Shown here: piece by piece, positions 39,563 through 49,381 of the stretch | Layout: each line of letters begins with the position of its first letter | How positions within the stretch are numbered: position 1 is the stretch's first letter | Assembly (NCBI RefSeq): GCF_019904295.1 | Contig: NZ_CP065359.1 | Span: 1,823,001-1,887,000 of the forward strand | Source of the DNA: Ruegeria sp. SCSIO 43209 | GTDB taxonomy: Bacteria > Pseudomonadota > Alphaproteobacteria > Rhodobacterales > Rhodobacteraceae | Direction: 5' to 3' | Length of the DNA stretch: 64,000 nucleotides | Notes under the pieces: model-generated | The model's input: only the letters and a program-made list of their open reading frames with translations | The model's database searches: none | Told to the model about the DNA's origin: nothing | Translations under genes and position numbers: made by a program

Positions 39563-39625
39563 GTAGGATGGGTTTCCAACCCATCAAAGCGGAGCGGGGA
39601 CGATGGGGTGAAACCCCATCTTACC
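39563..39625. repeat. Inverted pair of short hairpin repeats between convergent genes
   Basis: GATGGGTT-TCC-AACCCATC (39567-39585) and GATGGGGT-GAA-ACCCCATC (39602-39620) are two hairpins, with outer GTAGG and CTTAC flanks in inverted orientation. They sit between two converging gene ends and may also end transcription on both strands. Confidence 0.5.
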
Positions 39626-40391
39626 CAACATTCCGATCCAACCAGTTGGCAATCTGTTCGGCTGGGCCTTCCCAGCCCGGCTCCATGAACAGAAAATGCG
39701 CGTGGTTGTCGACAGGCAGGAAAGTCGCACGGTCTCCGTAAAGCTTCGCCAGAGCACGGCAGGTGTTGGGGTTCACGGCCCGGTCCTCGGTGCCTGAAAC
39801 GATCAGCACCGGGCAATCGACCTTGTCGATGTCCACCTTCATCGCGTGGTGGTCATCGAACATCCAGAAGAACATCTCGAACATCACCCGCCCGCTTTCG
39901 GGGCCGAGTTGGTCATACACCTCATGCTGCTGCGCCTCGGGCATCTTGTTGAGCGCAAAGGGGGCCATCAGGTCGAAATCGACCCGCATGGGCTGTTTCC
40001 AGAACGCCCCACCCTCCATCAACGCGCGCGGCACAGCGCGTTCGTCGTCGGTTTCCGGCAATGTGCCCCAAGCCGCGTTTGGGTTGATCAGGACAATTGC
40101 GCTGGCCAACCCCCGAGACGCCACCTTCTGCGCCACTACCCCCGCAATCGCATGGCCCAGTAGCACGGGTTCGCTATCCAACCCCTGCACGAAGTCCGAA
40201 ATGTCATTGGCGTAATCTAGGACGCTTGTGTCGGTGAGGCCGGGATCGGGATCTGCCTTGGGGTCGCCACCATGGTAGCGTAGCGCGGGCGTATGCACCG
40301 TCCAGCCACGTGCATGAAAGAAGCCCGCATAATCCTCCATACACCACGGCCCGGCAAAAGCACCGTGGATCAGAACAATCTCTTTCGTCAT
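39621..40391 (-). CDS. Alpha/beta hydrolase with nucleophile Ser replaced by Ala
   Basis: A 256-residue alpha/beta-hydrolase domain with oxyanion LIHGAF (7-12). The nucleophile elbow reads LLGHAIAG, so residue 81 is alanine (GCG) where serine (TCG) is expected. The acid (GTEDRAV) and histidine (VDNHAHFLF) are present. A single base change would restore serine. It is last in the minus-strand catabolic unit, 59 bases after the alcohol dehydrogenase. A GGGAGA SD sequence precedes the ATG at 40391. Confidence 0.8.
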   Translation of the reverse strand: MTKEIVLIHGAFAGPWCMEDYAGFFHARGWTVHTPALRYHGGDPKADPDPGLTDTSVLDYANDISDFVQGLDSEPVLLGHAIAGVVAQKVASRGLASAIVLINPNAAWGTLPETDDERAVPRALMEGGAFWKQPMRVDFDLMAPFALNKMPEAQQHEVYDQLGPESGRVMFEMFFWMFDDHHAMKVDIDKVDCPVLIVSGTEDRAVNPNTCRALAKLYGDRATFLPVDNHAHFLFMEPGWEGPAEQIANWLDRNVG

Positions 40392-40449
40392 GAAAATCTC
40401 CCTCACCTCCGACCAGTATGAGAGGTGAGGGATGGGTTCGGCAAGCCTG

Positions 40450-41593
40450 TCAGTGTGCTGCGTTGAAGAGCGTAGTCAGGTTTTCTTCGGTCAATTCGAT
40501 CGGATTCCCTCCGCATGAGGGGTCGATGATTGCGCCCTGGACCAATTCGGGGATGGCGGCTTTGGTGACGCCGAGGTCGGAGAGATTGCGGGGGATGGCG
40601 AGGCTGTCGTTGAACTCTTGCACGAAGCTGCGGAAGCCGTCGAAGCCGCCGTCGATGCCCAGATAGGCGGCGGCCTGCTGGAAGCGGTCGGCGATGACTG
40701 GCGCGTTGAACTCGAGCACGGCGGGCATGCAGACCGCGTTGGTGGTGCCGTGGTGGGTGTTGAACACCGCGCCGACGGGGTGGCTCATGGCGTGGATGGC
40801 GCCCAAGCCTTTCTGGAAGGCGGTGGCCCCCATCGCCGCCGCGCTCATCATCTGGGCGCGGGCTTCGATGTCGGTGCCGTCCGCATAGGCACGTGGCAGG
40901 TAGTCCTTGACCAGCCGCATTCCTTCCAGCGCGATGCCCTGAGACATCGGGTGGTAATGCGGGCTGCTGAACGCCTCGACACAATGCGCGAACGCATCCA
41001 GACCGGTGCCTGCGGTGATGAACCTGGGCATGCCCACCGTCAGCTCGGGGTCGCAGATCACCACGGTCGGCAGCACCTTGGGATGGAAGATGATCTTCTT
41101 GGCGTGGGTTTCAGAATTGGTGATGACGCTGGCGCGCCCCACTTCGGACCCTCCCGGCAGTTGTGGGGACGGCGATGATCGGCGCGATGGCATCGGCATC
41201 CGCTCGGGTCCACCAATCGCCGATGTCCTCAAAGTCCCAGACCGGGCGCGTCTGACCACACATGAAGGCGACCATCTTGCCCAGATCCAGCCCCGAGCCA
41301 CCGCCAAATGCGATCACCCCGTCATGACCGCCCGCGTTATAGGCCGCAACACCGGCCTCGAGGTTCTGTTCATTGGGGTTCGGGTCCACATCCGCGAACA
41401 GACCCCGGCCCAGACCGGCGGTCTCCATGATATCCAGCGTCGCGGTGGTGATCGGCAGGTCGGCCAGCCCCTTGTCGGTGACCAGCAGCGGCTTCTTCAT
41501 GCCGGCCGCAGCACAGGCTTCGGGCAATTCATTGATCCGCCCGGCCCCGAATTTGATTGCGGTTGGATAAGACCAGTTTCCAACAAGTGACAT
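40450..41593 (-). pseudogene. Iron-containing alcohol dehydrogenase, frameshifted
   Basis: Two overlapping frames together make one group III (iron-dependent) alcohol dehydrogenase. The N-terminal part (from ATG 41593) has the NAD-binding FGGGSGLD and runs to VPTTAG; the C-terminal part continues with SEVGRASVI and holds the metal-site histidines (FAHCVEAF, HAMSHPVGA, FNTHHG). Near 41149-41156 the motif PTTAGTGSEVG is broken, consistent with loss of two bases. It may be a true mutation or a sequencing error. It would oxidise an alcohol to an aldehyde ahead of the adjacent aldehyde dehydrogenase. Confidence 0.85.
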
Positions 41594-41660
41594 GTTTGCT
41601 TTCCTTCGTGTCAAAAGGCCTGCCCCGGCGAGGGGGTCATTCCGAGGCAGGCCGGCGTCC

Positions 41661-43043
41661 TTAGCCCGTGACCTTTTTCAGGTGATAGGATTTGGGACGT
41701 GTCAGGTTGTGATAGCCAATGACCGACAGACCGCCGCCGCGCCCGGTATTCTTGCAGCCGGTCCAGCACAGGCCGGGATCCAGATAATCGGCGCGGTTCA
41801 TGAAGACGGTGCCCGTCTCAATCTGGTCGCCCACCCGCGCAGCACGGTCCAGATCGCGGGTCCAGAGGCTCGCCGTCAGGCCAAACGCGCTGTCATTCAT
41901 CAGCCGGATGGCCTCGTCATCCGTGGACACTTTCATAATGCCCACTACCGGACCAAAGCTTTCATCCCGCATCACCCGCATGTCATGGGTGACATTGGTC
42001 AGGATCTGCGGCGTCAGATATGCGCCGCCATCATCCTCGGGGAAGATGTCGATATGGGCCACCGCACCAGCCTCGACCGCCTCGGCAATCTGCGCCCGCA
42101 CCTCATCGGCAAAGCGCACATTGGCCATCGGGCCAATGGTGGTCTCAGCGTCCAGCGGATTGCCCAGCTTATAGCCCTTCACGATCTCCACCGCCCTGGC
42201 GACGAAGTCGTCATACAGGCTTTCATGCACATAAATCCGCTCGATCCCGCAGCAGCACTGGCCCGCGTTGAACATTGCCCCGTCGATCAGCGTCTCAACC
42301 GCCGCCTCCAGATCGGCATCGTCCATCACATAACCCGGATCCTTGCCGCCCAGCTCAGTCCCGACGCCGGTAAAGGTGCCCGCCGCCGCGCGCTCCATCG
42401 CCTGGCCGCCGCCGACCGAGCCGGTGAAGTTCACGAAGTCGAACGCATTGCCCGCGATCAGATCGTTGGTCACGTCATGGCTCAGAAAGACATTCTGGAA
42501 CACGTCTTCCGGCACACCCGCTGCATGGAAGGCCTGCGCCATACGCTCGCCCACCAGCAGGGTCTGCGTGGCGTGTTTCAGGATCACCGTATTACCCGCG
42601 ATTAGCGCCGGGGCCACCGTGTTGATCGCCGTCATGTAAGGATAATTCCAGGGCGCCACCACAAACACCACCCCATGCGGGATGCGCCTGATATAGCGCT
42701 TGAACGTCTCATCTTCGCCCACCGCGATATCAGCCAATGCGCTTTCGGCAATCCCGGCCATATGGCTTGCGCGCTCGTTGAAGCCGCCGAATTCACCGCC
42801 ATAGCGCACCGGGCGACCCATCATATGCGCCAACTCGGGCACGATTTCCTCATTCATCGCGCCAACAGCAGCCACACCCGCCATCACGAGATCAATGCGT
42901 TCCCGCAAGGGCCGCGCCGCCCAAGCCGCCTGTGCGGCCCGCGCCCGGCCCGCAACCTCAAACGCCGCCTCCCGCGACAACACCTCGCGCTCGGCAAAAA
43001 CCGACCCATCAATCGGCGAGACACATTGCAACATCTGCCCCAT
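41661..43043 (-). CDS. Aldehyde dehydrogenase family protein
   Basis: A 460-residue NAD(P)-dependent aldehyde dehydrogenase. The catalytic cysteine lies in NAGQCCCGIE (about residue 264, three cysteines in a row), the general base glutamate in GTELGGKDPG (about 230) and the substrate asparagine in APWNYPY (about 133). ATG 43043 is preferred because GGAG lies five bases upstream; GTG at 43049 is an alternative. It sits between the ligase and the alcohol dehydrogenase, consistent with oxidation of the aldehyde made there. Confidence 0.92.
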   Translation of the reverse strand: MGQMLQCVSPIDGSVFAEREVLSREAAFEVAGRARAAQAAWAARPLRERIDLVMAGVAAVGAMNEEIVPELAHMMGRPVRYGGEFGGFNERASHMAGIAESALADIAVGEDETFKRYIRRIPHGVVFVVAPWNYPYMTAINTVAPALIAGNTVILKHATQTLLVGERMAQAFHAAGVPEDVFQNVFLSHDVTNDLIAGNAFDFVNFTGSVGGGQAMERAAAGTFTGVGTELGGKDPGYVMDDADLEAAVETLIDGAMFNAGQCCCGIERIYVHESLYDDFVARAVEIVKGYKLGNPLDAETTIGPMANVRFADEVRAQIAEAVEAGAVAHIDIFPEDDGGAYLTPQILTNVTHDMRVMRDESFGPVVGIMKVSTDDEAIRLMNDSAFGLTASLWTRDLDRAARVGDQIETGTVFMNRADYLDPGLCWTGCKNTGRGGGLSVIGYHNLTRPKSYHLKKVTG

Positions 43044-43076
43044 AGTCACTCCATCTCTAAAGAGAGCAGGATCCCT

Positions 43077-43165
43077 GCTTCATCTGGCCATAAATATCTC
43101 GGGGGCCGCCATTGGTGCGCCATTGGTTCGAGCGCCAATGGCGGCGGGGCTGGCCCCTCGCTTTC
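43077..43165. repeat. Dispersed GC-rich repeat, copy B with an inserted inverted repeat
   Basis: GCTTCATCTGGCCATAAATA, then CTCGGGG, and at the far end GGGGCTGGCCCCTCGCTTTC, as in copy A. Between them lies GCCGCCATTGG ... CCAATGGCGGC, an 11-bp inverted repeat absent from copy A. It separates the aldehyde dehydrogenase from the ligase. Confidence 0.65.
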
Positions 43166-43171
43166 ACCCTC

Positions 43172-44524
43172 TCAAGCCCGCTCGAACCCGCGGGCAATTT
43201 CCCAATCGGTCACCACGCGCTCAAACTCTTCGATCTCAACCTCGGCCGCGCGCGCATAGTGATCGACAACGTCATCTCCCATCGCAGCCCGCAACATCGC
43301 CGAGCCATGCAGCGCATCCCGCGCCGCGCGCAGATCGCCCGGGATCATCCCCGTCTCTCCCTGATAGACGTCGCCCGTGGTCGGCGGCTGCAACTCCAGC
43401 CCTTCTTCGATCCCAGCGATCCCCGCCGCCAGCATCCCAGCCATCGCCAGATAGGGGTTCATATCCGAGCCCGGGATACGGCATTCCACCCGCACCGCCT
43501 TGGTGCCGTCACCGCACAGGCGGAACCCGGCGGTGCGGTTGTCCACCGACCAGATGATCCGCGTCGGCGCAAAGGTCCCCTTCATGAACCGCTTGTAGCT
43601 GTTGATGTAGGGCGCCATGAAACAGGTGTAATCGGCGGCGTATTTCAAAAGACCCGCCATGTAGCTTTTCATCACATCCGACATGCCGAGCGGATCTTTT
43701 TCGTCGAAAAAGATCGGCCGCCCCTCGGACCAGAGCGACTGATGCACGTGGCTGGAACTGCCCACTTTCTCATGATGCCATTTCGGCAGGAAGGTCGCGG
43801 CATGCCCATGCTGCCAGGCAATCTCTTTCACCGCGTTCTTGGCGATCGAGTGATACTCGGCCGTCTCCATCGCAGGCGCATATTTGATGTTCAGCTCTTC
43901 CTGCCCGGTCTCGGCCTCACCTTTCGTGTTCTCGACCGGTATCCCCGCATCCCACAGATGGTTGCGGATCGGGCGCATCACATGCTCTTCCTTGGTGGTC
44001 TGAAGGATGTGATAGTCTTCGTTGTACCCCGAGATCGGCTCAAGGTCGCGAAAGCCTTCCTTGCGGATCTGATCAAAGCTTTTCTCGAACAGGAAAAACT
44101 CCAGCTCGGTGGCGCACATGGCGTCATAACCCATCGCCTTCAGCCGGTTCACCTGGCGTTTCAGGATCGAGCGCGGCGCGTGTGGCACTTCTTCATGCGT
44201 GTGATGATCCAGCACATCGCACATCACCATCGCCGTGCCTTCCAGCCACGGCACTGGGCGCAGCGTGCTCAGATCCGGCTTCATCACATAATCGCCATAG
44301 CCCCGCTCCCAACTGGTCGACGCATACCCATCCGGCGTCCCCATCTCGAGATCCGTCGCCAGCAGATAATTGCAGCAATGCGTCTCTTCCCACGCTCCCG
44401 CAACAAAATGACCCGCATGAAACCGCTTCCCCATCAAACGGCCCTGCATGTCAACCAGACAAACCAATACCGTATCAATCTCGCCAGACGAAACCTCAGC
44501 CTTCAAATGCTCAAATGTCAGCAT
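43172..44524 (-). CDS. Glutamine-synthetase-family gamma-glutamyl ligase, copy 3
   Basis: A 450-residue ligase with ATELEFFLFE and ETGQEELNIKYA metal segments, GSSSHVHQS and DNRTAGFRLCG. It differs from the two copies at 5-8 kb. GS-family ligases acting on amines include PuuA (putrescine), IpuC (isopropylamine) and GlnA4-type ethanolamine ligases. With alcohol and aldehyde dehydrogenase genes beside it, an amino-alcohol substrate is the best guess. An AGAGG SD sequence precedes the ATG. A perfect palindrome lies 22-42 bases upstream. Confidence 0.87.
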   Translation of the reverse strand: MLTFEHLKAEVSSGEIDTVLVCLVDMQGRLMGKRFHAGHFVAGAWEETHCCNYLLATDLEMGTPDGYASTSWERGYGDYVMKPDLSTLRPVPWLEGTAMVMCDVLDHHTHEEVPHAPRSILKRQVNRLKAMGYDAMCATELEFFLFEKSFDQIRKEGFRDLEPISGYNEDYHILQTTKEEHVMRPIRNHLWDAGIPVENTKGEAETGQEELNIKYAPAMETAEYHSIAKNAVKEIAWQHGHAATFLPKWHHEKVGSSSHVHQSLWSEGRPIFFDEKDPLGMSDVMKSYMAGLLKYAADYTCFMAPYINSYKRFMKGTFAPTRIIWSVDNRTAGFRLCGDGTKAVRVECRIPGSDMNPYLAMAGMLAAGIAGIEEGLELQPPTTGDVYQGETGMIPGDLRAARDALHGSAMLRAAMGDDVVDHYARAAEVEIEEFERVVTDWEIARGFERA

Positions 44525-44545
44525 GCAATACCTCTGTGATATGCG

Positions 44546-44566
44546 AGAATTTTCGACGAAAATTCT
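44546..44566. promoter_or_regulatory. Perfect 10-bp inverted repeat, candidate operator before the ligase gene
   Basis: AGAATTTTCG, a single A, then CGAAAATTCT: a 21-bp dyad 22 bases before the ligase ATG. It resembles the GGAATTTTTTCC-type site by the divergent RpiR gene in its GAATTTT core. It could also fold as an mRNA hairpin. Confidence 0.55.
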
Positions 44567-44579
44567 TTGTCCCTGTAAC

Positions 44580-44607
44580 GACCGGCCCGCGAAAGAACGG
44601 GCCGGTC
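44580..44607 (-). terminator. Intercistronic hairpin after the TRAP binding-protein gene
   Basis: GACCGGCCCG and CGGGCCGGTC form a 10-bp perfect stem with an 8-base loop, 8 bases past the dctP stop. There is no T-run on the minus strand, so partial termination or mRNA stabilisation favouring binding-protein synthesis is more likely than full termination. Confidence 0.5.
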
Positions 44608-44614
44608 CAGTGTT

Positions 44615-45649
44615 TTATCCGTAACGATAGGGCCGCCCGGCCTTGAGCATTTCAGCGTTGTAGCGCTTGAAGATATCCACGACCTTTGCCTTGGTCTCGG
44701 ATTCCGCAGCAATTTCGTCCCAGAACTTAACAGCAGCTTCTTCAACCGTCGCCCACTCTTCATCCGGGATGGTCGTCAATTGCATCTTGGTACCGTTAAC
44801 CCGCAGGTTGGCCTCGCCGCCCCAATACCACCACTGGCGGTAGTAGTGCGACTGGTCACAGCAGACCTTGAACAGAGTTTGCAGATCTTCCGGCAGCTCG
44901 TTCCAGCGATCCATATTGGCAAAGAAGTGGCCGGCCCAGGCCCCCGAAATGTTGTTGGTTAGGAAGTAGTTAGTCACATCCGCCCAACCCACGGTGTAGT
45001 CTTCGGTGATGCCCGACCAGGCAATACCGTCCAACTCGCCGGTTTGAACTGCAACTTCGATGTCTTCCCACGGCAGCGTGACGGGAACAACGCCAAACTG
45101 GCTGAGGAACCGGCCTGCTGTCGGGAAGGTGAAGATGCGTTTGCCCTTCATATCCTCCAGCGAATTGATCGGATCCTTGGTCGCAAAGTGACACGGATCC
45201 CACGCGCCGGCGCTGATGTGTTTAACGCCAACCTTGGAATACTCTTCGTCCCAGATTTCGTTCAAGCCCCACTGGTTGAACAGCACCGGTACGTCCAGCG
45301 AATAGCGCGAAGCGAACGGGAAGTAGCCGCCGAAAACAGTGACTTCGGTGGGCGAGGCCATCGAGTCATCATCCGATTGAACCGCGTCGATGGTTCCCTT
45401 CTGCATAGCGCGGAACAGCTCTCCGGTCGGGACCAGTTGATCGGCGTAGAACAGCTCGATCTGCATACGGTCACCGGCGATCTGGTTGAACATCTTGATA
45501 GCCGGGTCGATCACATGCTCGGCCAGTGCAGGACCGGCATAGGTCTGCATCCGCCATGTGATCGTGCTTTGCGCCAGTGCAGGCGTTGCCAAAGGTGCCG
45601 CCGCAACCCCTACCCCCGCAGTTTTCAGAAACTTACGTCTTGTCGTCAT
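44615..45649 (-). CDS. TRAP transporter solute-binding protein (DctP family)
   Basis: A 344-residue periplasmic binding protein with a twin-arginine type leader (TTRRKFLKTAG, cleavage near ALA). The mature sequence has the DctP-fold features: LFYADQLVPTGELFRAMQKGTIDAV, GKRIFTFPTAGRFLSQFG and LDGIAWSGITEDYTVGWADV. Substrate is not evident; a TRAP system usually imports organic acids, amino acids or compatible solutes. A GAGAGGA SD sequence precedes the ATG. It follows the two TRAP membrane genes. Confidence 0.93.
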   Translation of the reverse strand: MTTRRKFLKTAGVGVAAAPLATPALAQSTITWRMQTYAGPALAEHVIDPAIKMFNQIAGDRMQIELFYADQLVPTGELFRAMQKGTIDAVQSDDDSMASPTEVTVFGGYFPFASRYSLDVPVLFNQWGLNEIWDEEYSKVGVKHISAGAWDPCHFATKDPINSLEDMKGKRIFTFPTAGRFLSQFGVVPVTLPWEDIEVAVQTGELDGIAWSGITEDYTVGWADVTNYFLTNNISGAWAGHFFANMDRWNELPEDLQTLFKVCCDQSHYYRQWWYWGGEANLRVNGTKMQLTTIPDEEWATVEEAAVKFWDEIAAESETKAKVVDIFKRYNAEMLKAGRPYRYG

Positions 45650-45700
45650 GTCAATTTCCTCTCCGTTTAAGTTTGGGTGCCCGTGTGTCGGGCCTTCTGG

Positions 45701-47020
45701 TTAATTTCCGTAAACATACCCGGGCAGCCACAAGGCGATCTCGGGGAATATCATGATTATTGCGAGCGCCAGGATCATCACCCCGACAAAGGGCACGATT
45801 GAGCGGTAAATGTCCCGCAGGCTGATTTCTGGTGGAGCCATTGCGCGCATCAGGAACAGGTTGTAGCCGAAAGGCGGCGTCATATACGCGATCTGGGTGG
45901 TGATGGTGTAAAGTACACCGTACCAGATCAGATCGAAACCAAGCGCCCCCACGAGCGGCACATAGAGCGGCGCCACGATGACGAGCATTGCGGTATCGTC
46001 CAGGAACGTGCCCATGATGATAAAGCTGAGCTGCATCAGGATCAGGATCAGCCACGGTGACAGCCCCAACTGCTCGGTGAACAGGTTCTCGATGGCCTTG
46101 ACCGCGCCCAGCCCGTCAAACACCGCGCCGAAGCCCAGCGCCGCAAGGATGATCCACATGAACATGCACGAGATGGCCAATGTTTGCTTGGTACAATCCT
46201 CGAAAATCTTCCACGTCATCCGACGTTTGAGGACTGACGCCACAAGCGCCGCCAACGCTCCGATGGCCGAACTTTCTACCAATGAGGTCCAACCATTCAC
46301 GAACGGCAGCATCATCGCAGCGAAAATCATCAATGGCAGTGCCCCGGCCCAGAGCAGACGGAGTTTCTCGGACCTTGGGACCTCGTGCGCGTCTTCCATC
46401 GCTGGTCCCAGATGCGGCTGAAGCCGGCAACGAATCCAGATGTAGAGGATGAACAAAGACGCCATCAGCAGCCCCGGCACAATGCCTGCCAGCCAAAGTT
46501 GACCGACGGGTTGCCGCGCGATCATGGCATAAAGCACCAGAACTACCGAGGGCGGCACAAGAATGCCCAAGCTCGACCCGGCCTGAATGACCCCCGTCAC
46601 CATGGTCTTGTCGTATCCGCGCCGCAGCAGTTCAGGCAGCGCAATCGTCGCCCCGATGGCCATACCTGCCACGCTGAGCCCGTTCATGGCCGAGACCAGC
46701 ACCATCAGACCGATGGTGCCGATGGCAAGCCCACCGTTCACCGGCCCCATCCAGACGTGGAACATGCGATAGAGGTCATCGGCCAGACGACTTTCGCTCA
46801 GGACATAGCCCATGAAGATGAACATCGGCAGGGTCAGCAGCGGGTACCATTTCATCAGCTTCATCGCCGCCGAAAACGGAATGTCCTGCCCGCCTGTCCC
46901 CCAGAGCGCCAGTGCCGCAATGGCTGCGACGGCACCAATTGCACCAAAGACGCGCTGCCCGGTGAACAGCATCAGCATCATCGAAGCGAACATGAAGATT
47001 GCGATAAATTCCTGGCTCAT
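45701..47020 (-). CDS. TRAP transporter large permease (DctM family)
   Basis: A 439-residue inner-membrane protein with about 12 helices, including the DctM motif region LFIFMGYVLSESRLADDLYRMF and VIQAGSSLGILVPPSVVLVLYA. It moves the solute with Na+ or H+ flux together with the small subunit. The ATG at 47020 overlaps the DctQ stop (ATGA). The upstream extension of the open frame is antisense-like and not used. Confidence 0.95.
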   Translation of the reverse strand: MSQEFIAIFMFASMMLMLFTGQRVFGAIGAVAAIAALALWGTGGQDIPFSAAMKLMKWYPLLTLPMFIFMGYVLSESRLADDLYRMFHVWMGPVNGGLAIGTIGLMVLVSAMNGLSVAGMAIGATIALPELLRRGYDKTMVTGVIQAGSSLGILVPPSVVLVLYAMIARQPVGQLWLAGIVPGLLMASLFILYIWIRCRLQPHLGPAMEDAHEVPRSEKLRLLWAGALPLMIFAAMMLPFVNGWTSLVESSAIGALAALVASVLKRRMTWKIFEDCTKQTLAISCMFMWIILAALGFGAVFDGLGAVKAIENLFTEQLGLSPWLILILMQLSFIIMGTFLDDTAMLVIVAPLYVPLVGALGFDLIWYGVLYTITTQIAYMTPPFGYNLFLMRAMAPPEISLRDIYRSIVPFVGVMILALAIIMIFPEIALWLPGYVYGN

Positions 47021-47601
47021 GCCCGCGCTGCCCCGATCTCTTGCCCGTTGATCCGCGCAATGTCTTTGAAAAATTCTGATATCGCCTGCAGCAGCATCAG
47101 GAAGAAGCCGAAGACCATGATCGCCTTGACCGGCCAGATGTATGGTCGCCACGCAGTGGAGGATCGTTCTAGCCGTCCGACTTCTTCGCTGCCGGTCAGA
47201 AGGCCTGTGAAATAGGCGACAGGCTCATCACCCCAATAGCCCAGGCTGTACGCCGTGGATCCAAGCCCACCGTAGAACAGTACACCCAGATAAAGGATCA
47301 GCAGCAGCACCGTGAAGGCATCGAACCAGGCTTTCCTGCGATGGCTCCAATTATGGTAAAACAGATCCATCCGCACGTTCGAACCCAGTTGGATCGAATA
47401 CGGCCCCCCCATGATGTAATAAGTCACCATCGCAAACTGCGCCATTTCTAGCGTCCAGAGCGAAGGCAGAAAGAAGGTCTTCGAGATCGAGGACCACAGC
47501 AGGATACCCATCATCACGAACAGGCCCCACATCATGACCCGCCCGATCCGGTAGTTCACCGCATCGACCACACGCACATATGCTGACATTGCCTTGATCA
47601 T
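47017..47601 (-). CDS. TRAP transporter small permease (DctQ family)
   Basis: A 194-residue protein with four hydrophobic helices, the usual DctQ layout (first near residues 23-45, last near 160-180). It pairs with DctM and is coupled to it by ATGA overlap. Its own start overlaps the stop of the amidohydrolase gene by four bases, indicating that the amidohydrolase and the transporter are made from one transcript. Confidence 0.92.
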   Translation of the reverse strand: MIKAMSAYVRVVDAVNYRIGRVMMWGLFVMMGILLWSSISKTFFLPSLWTLEMAQFAMVTYYIMGGPYSIQLGSNVRMDLFYHNWSHRRKAWFDAFTVLLLILYLGVLFYGGLGSTAYSLGYWGDEPVAYFTGLLTGSEEVGRLERSSTAWRPYIWPVKAIMVFGFFLMLLQAISEFFKDIARINGQEIGAARA

Positions 47602-48389
47602 TCGCCCACCCCGCTACAGAACGGAGCAATGGTACGATTGATCCACGGGGCCAGACAATCGGCCATGACCCGCTGCTGCTCGGCTGTCTGAATCAGATCA
47701 TTCCGGATCTCGATCATGACGTTCAACAATCCGTTGGGCGCTGCGTGAAGATCCAAAGTGTGCGCCACCCCGTCTGCCGCCGAATAGGGTTCGTTCAATC
47801 GAGTAACCAGGGGCAGCTCGTGCGCGGCGCTGGCCAACATCGCCTTGGCAAAGCGGGCGTCCTGGCCATGCAGCAAACCAAGCTCAACATCGCGCGGTGT
47901 TCCGCGGTATATCGGCGTGAAACTATGAACCGTCACCATGAGTTTTAGCGTGCGGTGATGACGGATCAGAACATCCTCTAGCCCTTGGCAAAACGGCACG
48001 TATACGCCTTCAATCCGCTGCTGACGCGCATTGGCGCTCAGTTCAAGGTTCGCCGGGATCGGTGTGTCTTCACTGCATTCCGGCATAGCATCGGGGGCTT
48101 CGGGAGGGCGGTTGCAGTCATAAACCAGCCTCGACACCCCGCCATGCACCAGCACGCCGTTCAACTGCTGGGCCAGTGCCTGTGCAACCGGCAGCGCGCC
48201 CGGGTCCCACGCGATATGGCTGCGCAGTGCCTCGGCACTTAGCCCCATGTCCCCCAGTCCGTCCGGGATACGATGCGAGGCGTGTTCGCACACCACCACA
48301 ACCGAAGGCTCTTCCGGCGCGTCGTCGATGTGAACGACGGGACCGAAATCAGGCTGAGCAGAGGTGAGAGTGGCGCTACGTGATTCCAT
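47598..48389 (-). CDS. N-formylglutamate amidohydrolase family protein
   Basis: 263 residues of the FGase family (HutG-like zinc amidohydrolase). Likely metal ligands and active-site residues are in CEHASHRIP (about 34-42), VYDCNRP and TVHSFTP. Classical members hydrolyse N-formylglutamate in histidine catabolism, but no hut genes are here. It is first in the minus-strand unit with a TRAP importer and a gamma-glutamyl ligase, so hydrolysis of a gamma- or N-acyl-glutamate is plausible. No clear SD sequence precedes the ATG; the upstream palindrome lies right against it. Confidence 0.85.
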   Translation of the reverse strand: MESRSATLTSAQPDFGPVVHIDDAPEEPSVVVVCEHASHRIPDGLGDMGLSAEALRSHIAWDPGALPVAQALAQQLNGVLVHGGVSRLVYDCNRPPEAPDAMPECSEDTPIPANLELSANARQQRIEGVYVPFCQGLEDVLIRHHRTLKLMVTVHSFTPIYRGTPRDVELGLLHGQDARFAKAMLASAAHELPLVTRLNEPYSAADGVAHTLDLHAAPNGLLNVMIEIRNDLIQTAEQQRVMADCLAPWINRTIAPFCSGVGE

Positions 48390-48390
48390 T

Positions 48391-48404
48391 TGGAAAAAAT
48401 TCCA
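48391..48404. promoter_or_regulatory. Inverted repeat TGGAA-N4-TTCCA, candidate RpiR operator
   Basis: TGGAAAAAATTCCA abuts the amidohydrolase start codon. Related half-sites (AAATTTCC at about 48427, AAAATTCC at 48440 and AAATTTTCCAC at 48468) follow in the 120-base region shared with the RpiR gene, as expected for a cluster of binding sites. The RpiR protein is the obvious candidate to bind. Confidence 0.5.
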
Positions 48405-48511
48405 CAGAGGTTCTTAACCTGTCAATAAATTTCCTGTATAAAATTCCCCAAGTCAGATTGCATTGTCAAATTTTCCACATAAACATGGGTAGAAAGGGAA
48501 AGGAGTATTCC

Positions 48512-49381
48512 GTGCGAGTGACAGAAAGGCTCCTTGCGCATCGCGAAATGATGACACCGACCGAGCGGCAGTTGGTCAACGTGCTGCTGGATGATTACCC
48601 CATGGCAGGGCTTGGCAGCATTACCGAGCTGGCCAGTATCGCCTCGGTTTCCACCGCCACGGTTGCGCGGATGCTTCAGAAAACCGGCTTTGATGGCTAT
48701 CCGCAGTTTCAGTCCGCGATACGTAGCGAAGTGAAAGAGATGATCTCGGGGCCCGTCGCCAAACGGGATGTCTGGCAGAATGACTTACCTGAAGAACACA
48801 TTCTCAACCGCTACTCCCGCCAAGCGCTTGAGAACCAGCGGCGTTCGATTGATGAGGTCGACCCGGATGAGTTTGACAGTTTCTGCCGTATGCTTTGCGA
48901 TCCCAAACGGCGTGTTTTCATCACCGGCGGACGCATAACCGGGACCCTGGCGCAATATCTCTACCTCCACCTGCAGATGATCCGTCCTGATGTGAAGCTG
49001 CTGTCAGATGCAGCGTCGTGGACTCACGATCTGCTCGAAGTGCGCGAAGGCGACGTGCTGGTGGCCTTGGATGTGCGGCGTTATGAGAACACTACTTTGT
49101 TGATCGGGCAGCTTTGCCATGAACGCGGGGCCGAGGTTGTCCTGCTGACGGATCAATGGCGATCCCCCATCCACCGGCTGGCGAAACACACCTTTGCGGT
49201 AAGGATCGCAGTGCCTTCGGCATGGGATTCCATGACTTCGCTAATGGTGCTATTGGAATGCGCGATTGCCGAAATGCAGGAACGTCTCTGGGACAGTGTC
49301 AAGCAGCGCACGGACGAGTTAGAGCAGGCCTTTGACCGGACGAAGCTGTTTCGCAAGTTCGGCCAAAGCTCGGGGTCCTGA
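48512..49381 (+). CDS. RpiR family transcriptional regulator
   Basis: A 289-residue regulator: an N-terminal HTH_6 (MTPTERQLVNVLLDDYPMAG and IASVSTATVARMLQKTGFDGYP, residues about 12-65) followed by a SIS domain (RVFITGGRITGTLAQYLYLH onwards). SIS domains bind phosphosugars or other acids. GTG at 48512 is chosen because AAGGAG lies seven bases before it; ATG at 48485 is closer to the operator cluster and has no SD sequence. It is divergent from the catabolic unit and is the likely local regulator. Confidence 0.9.
   Translation: MRVTERLLAHREMMTPTERQLVNVLLDDYPMAGLGSITELASIASVSTATVARMLQKTGFDGYPQFQSAIRSEVKEMISGPVAKRDVWQNDLPEEHILNRYSRQALENQRRSIDEVDPDEFDSFCRMLCDPKRRVFITGGRITGTLAQYLYLHLQMIRPDVKLLSDAASWTHDLLEVREGDVLVALDVRRYENTTLLIGQLCHERGAEVVLLTDQWRSPIHRLAKHTFAVRIAVPSAWDSMTSLMVLLECAIAEMQERLWDSVKQRTDELEQAFDRTKLFRKFGQSSGS

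Follow-up and report, generated by a model that had tools for sequence, protein, structure and literature searches.

A probable Eto-type ethanolamine operon in Ruegeria sp. SCSIO 43209 and the near-identical second copy of its enzyme genes

Which compound is consumed through a run of genes for a glutamine-synthetase-family ligase (GS), an aldehyde dehydrogenase (ALDH), an iron alcohol dehydrogenase (ADH), an amidohydrolase-like protein and a tripartite ATP-independent periplasmic (TRAP) importer? The question is raised by positions 39,621 to 49,381 of a 64,000-nucleotide stretch of the genome of Ruegeria sp. SCSIO 43209 (NZ_CP065359.1, positions 1,823,001 to 1,887,000; hereafter the window, in whose numbering coordinates are given). 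An initial annotation had proposed that ethanolamine or a similar amino-alcohol is imported, gamma-glutamylated, oxidized twice and hydrolyzed to glutamate and an amino acid, and had regarded the use of an N-formylglutamate-amidohydrolase (FGase)-family hydrolase and of an RpiR-type regulator as new. We find it very likely that this marine, Ruegeria-like alphaproteobacterium carries here an Eto-type operon for ethanolamine catabolism, and this operon is already known.

A published counterpart and the predicted route

Ethanolamine is a component of membrane lipid. In Westermann et al. 2023 (PMC10132767), membrane-lipid ethanolamine is portrayed as a nutrient that is widespread in the sea, and an ethanolamine operon is described in Phaeobacter/Roseobacter sp. 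MED193; the legend to Fig. 5C gives its genes as RpiR, GGAH (gamma-glutamylglycine amidohydrolase), EtoV, EtoW, EtoX, ETAGA (ethanolamine gamma-glutamylase), GAADDH and GETADH. According to the same source, levels of GGAH, EtoX, ETAGA, GAADDH and GETADH were higher on phosphorylethanolamine, EtoX bound ethanolamine with a dissociation constant of 7.9 µM and left four analogues unbound, and the genes were related, through reference 32 of the paper (Vetting et al. 2015), to those of Chromohalobacter salexigens and Agrobacterium tumefaciens. The MED193 locus, which we recovered in a scan with EtoX, has the eight genes of the window in the same order and orientation. Identity between the two loci is high for EtoX (91%), ALDH (86%), GS (82%) and the two pieces into which the window's ADH is divided (90% and 87%), and the permeases EtoV (58%) and EtoW (61%) are more distant.

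Ten proteins of this stretch were scanned for Pfam families, and the gene run named in the initial annotation was borne out in both position and family. The divergent RpiR-family regulator (48380..49381, plus strand), with HTH_6 and SIS domains, probably starts downstream of the first listed GTG. The other genes, all on the minus strand, encode the FGase-family protein (47598..48389; PF05013, E 7.2e-37), the TRAP small permease EtoV (47017..47601; PF04290, DctQ), the large permease EtoW (45701..47020; PF06808, DctM; listed from 47152, with the start set at 47020), the ethanolamine-binding protein EtoX (44615..45649; DctP), which carries a Tat signal, GS (43172..44524; PF00120, Gln-synt_C), ALDH (41661..43049; PF00171) and ADH (40450..41614). 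Apart from that of ADH, the reading frames of the operon are open. With the EtoW start at 47020, overlaps of 4 bases join the FGase-family gene to etoV and etoV to etoW, which fits a single operon. No sigma-70-like promoter was found between rpiR and the operon (48200-48700), a result that carries little weight.

In the route predicted for these genes, EtoX would bind ethanolamine in the periplasm and EtoVW would import it, after which GS, the predicted ethanolamine gamma-glutamylase, would couple it to glutamate at the expense of ATP. ADH and then ALDH, predicted to be the gamma-glutamylethanolamide and gamma-glutamylacetaldehydeamide dehydrogenases, would oxidize gamma-glutamylethanolamide to gamma-glutamylglycine, and the FGase-family protein, a predicted GGAH, would split the latter into glutamate and glycine. 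RpiR would be the controller of the operon. What has been shown in orthologues is ethanolamine binding and a rise of five of the proteins on phosphorylethanolamine; the single enzyme steps and the role of RpiR are inferred. The succession of import, gamma-glutamylation, two oxidations and FGase-family hydrolysis matches the route of the published operon, in which the enzyme steps are predicted (PMC10132767), and the pathway of the initial annotation is very probably correct. Its novelty does not hold, in that the legend to Fig. 5C of PMC10132767 already lists both the hydrolase and RpiR, and that PMC6529630 likewise proposes, within the same route for Streptomyces, a gamma-glutamylglycine amidohydrolase of the FGase family. 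A new pathway was thus rejected, the same operon being in print. The operon of the window is a typical member of a known marine ethanolamine route and adds no new principle; the lead that remains is the near-identical duplication of its enzyme module, together with a second, phosphate-linked locus.

The canonical Eut (ethanolamine ammonia-lyase) pathway acts on the same substrate and yields acetaldehyde and ammonia, whereas the products predicted for the window are glycine and glutamate; neither a lyase nor a microcompartment protein was found among the ten proteins scanned. The isopropylamine (Ipu) pathway has a chemical logic like that of the present route. The same is true of the GlnA4 pathway of Streptomyces coelicolor, in which gamma-glutamylation of ethanolamine is followed by oxidation and by a predicted FGase-family hydrolysis (accessible part of PMC6529630). 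Such shared logic would be expected if a GlnA4-type or Ipu pathway had been acquired by an alphaproteobacterium, but we give this explanation next to no credence. In PMC6529630, the Streptomyces cluster is described with a short-chain dehydrogenase and a glutamine amidotransferase, alongside its own putative transporter, and the legend to its Fig. 2 indicates another dehydrogenase class, regulator and transporter than those of the window. When neighbours were compared with this description, neither the short-chain dehydrogenase nor the amidotransferase had a counterpart in the window, which has an iron ADH, ALDH, FGase, TRAP genes and RpiR, like MED193, and is set apart by this gene content.

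Conservation of the locus

Relatives were sought with the window's EtoX, and at least 584 were confirmed, of which the best 80 loci were fetched, so that counts out of 80 refer to close relatives. The eight genes have the same order and orientation, with RpiR divergent to GGAH-EtoV-EtoW-EtoX-GS-ALDH-ADH, in 69 of the 80 loci, which indicates that the arrangement is not due to chance. The initial annotation had named an order that is not conserved in relatives as a reason to abandon its reading, and the order proves to be conserved. Identity to the window proteins, where matched, is 86-99% for EtoX (80 loci), 64-96% for GS (73), 70-95% for ALDH (71), 44-67% for FGase (76) and 39-93% for RpiR (76). 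Five of the remaining 11 loci (L021, L036, L073, L080 and L082) are on short stretches, where a contig end may explain the gap. In a comparison of 54 genomes of the genus, including the genome of the window itself (G000), EtoX is present in 48 (44 at 91% identity or more, four at 63%) and GS, counted at E <= 1e-150, in 53. In 41 of these genomes no more than 6 kb separates the GS gene from etoX; of the remaining seven, some are cases at contig ends.

An alpha/beta hydrolase gene (39621..40406, minus strand; PF12697) falls inside the stretch under study, although it does not figure in the reasoning of the initial annotation. It has no match at the MED193 locus and was rejected as a core pathway gene, being present in 11 of the 80 stretches, all titled Ruegeria; we treat it as accessory. 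We also note that one locus (L030:4277-12921) carries etoVWX and an FGase gene with the other enzymes not nearby, and that its neighbours, judged by eye on their first residues only, resemble a molybdenum oxidoreductase pair and a methyltransferase.

The binding protein and its ligand

The Csal_0678 system of C. salexigens (PDB 4uab and 4xf5) was reportedly characterized as an ethanolamine TRAP system by Vetting et al. in 2015. These two entries are the best PDB matches of the window's EtoX (E 2.7e-190), the runner-up reaching only 1e-18. The best PDB match of GS is 5dm3 (E 7.8e-238), which we take to be the neighbouring C. salexigens protein, and the sole PDB match of the FGase-family protein is 2odf, named Atu2144. 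In the parts of the literature that were accessible, 4UAB is given as Csal_0678 with ethanolamine (PMC12410723), ethanolamine binding of Csal_0678 is reported (PMC12410723, PMC4646407), and the protein is described as devoid of the arginine with which TRAP binding proteins engage carboxylates, Phe being the commonest replacement (PMC4646407).

We aligned 15 sequences, namely the window's EtoX, eight EtoX relatives and six other TRAP binding proteins of the same genome. In the column of the TRAP arginine, Phe stands in the window protein and in five relatives, Tyr in the three relatives of the 63%-identical type, and Arg in all six other TRAP binding proteins found in the genome. The window's EtoX and its orthologue Csal_0678 are therefore alike in missing this residue. 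All nine EtoX rows share the Glu at position 216 of the window protein, a residue that the six other binding proteins lack, and it probably corresponds, by the numbering that we infer, to Glu220 of the C. salexigens protein in the accessible part of PMC12410723. The window protein thus combines orthology to the ethanolamine-binding Csal_0678 and MED193_10041 with loss of the TRAP selectivity arginine and presence of a probable acidic platform residue.

The enzyme logic would suit any short amino-alcohol, and 4xf5, a second structure of the Csal_0678 sequence, is presumably bound to 2-amino-1-propanol. An operon for a related compound, such as L-alaninol, propanolamine or serinol, with alanine or another amino acid as its product, could be envisaged on these grounds. 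We hold this to be very unlikely, given that the MED193 EtoX, 91% identical to that of the window, binds ethanolamine at 7.9 µM and that the MED193 proteins rise on phosphorylethanolamine (accessible part of PMC10132767). Because other amino-alcohols are absent from the analogues named there, the substrate preference is not settled by these data, and it is ethanolamine that we retain as the substrate.

The divergent, 63% identical form of EtoX occurs in four genomes of the genus (G005, G020, G026 and G073; stretches L129, L131 and L130 were fetched from the first three). Its ligand may differ from that of the window's EtoX. One of these genes (L130) stands in the same kind of operon, and at another (L129) the enzyme genes are not adjoining.

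The broken alcohol dehydrogenase and the second locus

Several observations weigh against the assignment of the window to the Eto route. The FGase-family protein and RpiR are just 48% and 47% identical to their MED193 counterparts. The former is hit by no NCBIfam model; since the genome has five FGase-family matches and the NCBIfam name is missing, family membership alone says little on function. Six of the 80 loci (L030, L058, L059, L060, L062 and L064) have ample flank, yet some or all of the other genes are missing near their TRAP genes, so that the enzymes and the importer are not inseparable. The C. salexigens route is called demonstrated in PMC10132767 and is predicted in silico according to PMC6529630, as far as the accessible parts of both go. 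Finally, the ADH gene of the window is split into two open reading frames in different frames (41614-41111 and 41307-40450, minus strand), with the break near 41,150 and with PF00465 and ADH_Fe_C on separate pieces; an intact ADH is missing from the operon.

The window also differs from MED193 by a second, near-identical enzyme set elsewhere in the genome, at which the ADH gene is intact (C1:3326229-3327371) and the GS and ALDH proteins are each 100% identical to those of the window. The stretch duplicated (40447..44521, minus strand; partner L126:8302-12378, or C1:3,323,301-3,327,377, L126 being C1:3,315,000-3,334,900 of the same genome) aligns over 4,077 columns at 99.4% identity, and its sole gap opens at the frame break. 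The mismatches, 21 in all, are at or beyond 40,675, and the preceding 3.8 kb differ by this gap only, which implies that the break is either very recent or an artefact of sequencing or assembly across a long repeat. The repeat itself would reflect recent copying between the loci or an assembly effect. The DNA identity of GS is 85-89% to four TRAP-locus copies and 76-88% to four copies of the second-locus type, values that do not settle the direction of copying. The ADH step in this genome would depend on the intact copy, which could serve the pathway of the window in trans.

A single ADH match that covers 374-381 of 381 residues without stops is present in 52 of the 54 genus genomes, that of the window's own genome being the second copy; the frame break was thus rejected as a shared trait of the genus. 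The search was made at E <= 1e-120, a cut-off under which shorter pieces are invisible. At this cut-off, two genomes (G017 and G018) have no ADH match, and the G018 contig stops inside the ALDH gene. In the matches listed for the 54 genomes, no ADH is split except that of the window, whose 3' piece accounts for the extra row. Two GS matches at E <= 1e-150 are likewise found in this genome only.

Such a singular break could mean that the operon is decaying, the TRAP locus no longer carrying a full pathway and the enzymes encoded at the second locus doing the work. A precedent in the genus is G015, where GS, ALDH and ADH are absent from the TRAP locus and all kept at the second locus. We nonetheless judge decay to be unlikely, in view of the identity of the two copies over 3.8 kb apart from the gap, of an intact ADH that can act in trans and of the open frames of the other genes. 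An operon for ethanolamine that would borrow its ADH step is the reading that we prefer.

The second gamma-glutamyl ethanolamine module (L126:3134-19901, or C1:3,318,133-3,334,900) lies outside the window. Its genes encode, in order, a sulfatase-family protein (L126:3134-4663), an inositol-monophosphatase-family protein, a Na/Pi transporter with PhoU, an FGase 52% identical to that of the window, GS, ALDH, ADH, EamA and DeoR, followed by a family-5 binding protein (L126:14310-16346) and ABC transporter genes (Opp-type importer). The sulfatase-family protein, hereafter the phosphodiesterase, has the phosphonate monoester hydrolase 4upk as its best PDB match (E 1.3e-243) and is matched by the NCBIfam PehA model below its cut-off. 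The top NCBIfam match of the phosphatase is histidinol-phosphatase, also below cut-off.

A phosphodiesterase of this type, counted at E <= 1e-150, is matched in 47 of the 54 genomes, and close matches (80-90%) beyond the own genome are confined to G003, G007, G015 and G068. The second locus of G015 has FGase, GS, ALDH and ADH and no Na/Pi match, and that of G068 has FGase, GS and ADH, with neither ALDH nor Na/Pi matched. G003 and G007 keep the phosphodiesterase, phosphatase, Na/Pi, EamA, DeoR and ABC genes and have none of FGase, GS, ALDH and ADH there. G010 and G014 show the order phosphatase-FGase-GS-ALDH-ADH, with no such phosphodiesterase or Na/Pi match in the fetched stretch (a contig of 6 kb only in G014). 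In G015 (stretches L127, G015:C23, and L128, G015:C5), etoX is followed at the TRAP locus by the alpha/beta hydrolase gene. Taken together, the split arrangement in G015 and the patterns in the other genomes indicate that a genome normally has one copy of the enzyme module, which can be at either locus.

It is conceivable, if doubtful, that the second locus imports an intact phospho-ethanolamine ester such as glycerophosphoethanolamine, dismantles it in the cell and moves the phosphate, with the TRAP operon taking free ethanolamine and the two loci sharing or exchanging one enzyme module. Some marine bacteria would then free both the phosphorus and the nitrogen of phospholipid head groups intracellularly. 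Against this, phosphodiesterase, Na/Pi and ethanolamine enzymes occur together at the second locus only in the window's genome among those examined, and the failure to match Na/Pi at this locus in G015 and G068 lowers the odds. Moreover, the ABC importer belongs to the oligopeptide class, none of its closest structural matches is named as a binder of phosphoesters, and genomes whose locus has no ethanolamine module still keep the transporter and phosphodiesterase. Among the titles and abstract openings listed by a literature search whose coverage left out most subscription papers, none describes the second locus.

Phosphate transport is found beside ethanolamine genes once more, among the 80 loci. 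In eight of them (L014, L016, L017, L018, L023, L025, L028 and L033), a gene that matches the Na/Pi transporter sits between etoX and gs; the match is near full length in seven and shortened in L023, and the Pfam family was checked in L014 alone. A ninth match (L061) is placed elsewhere.

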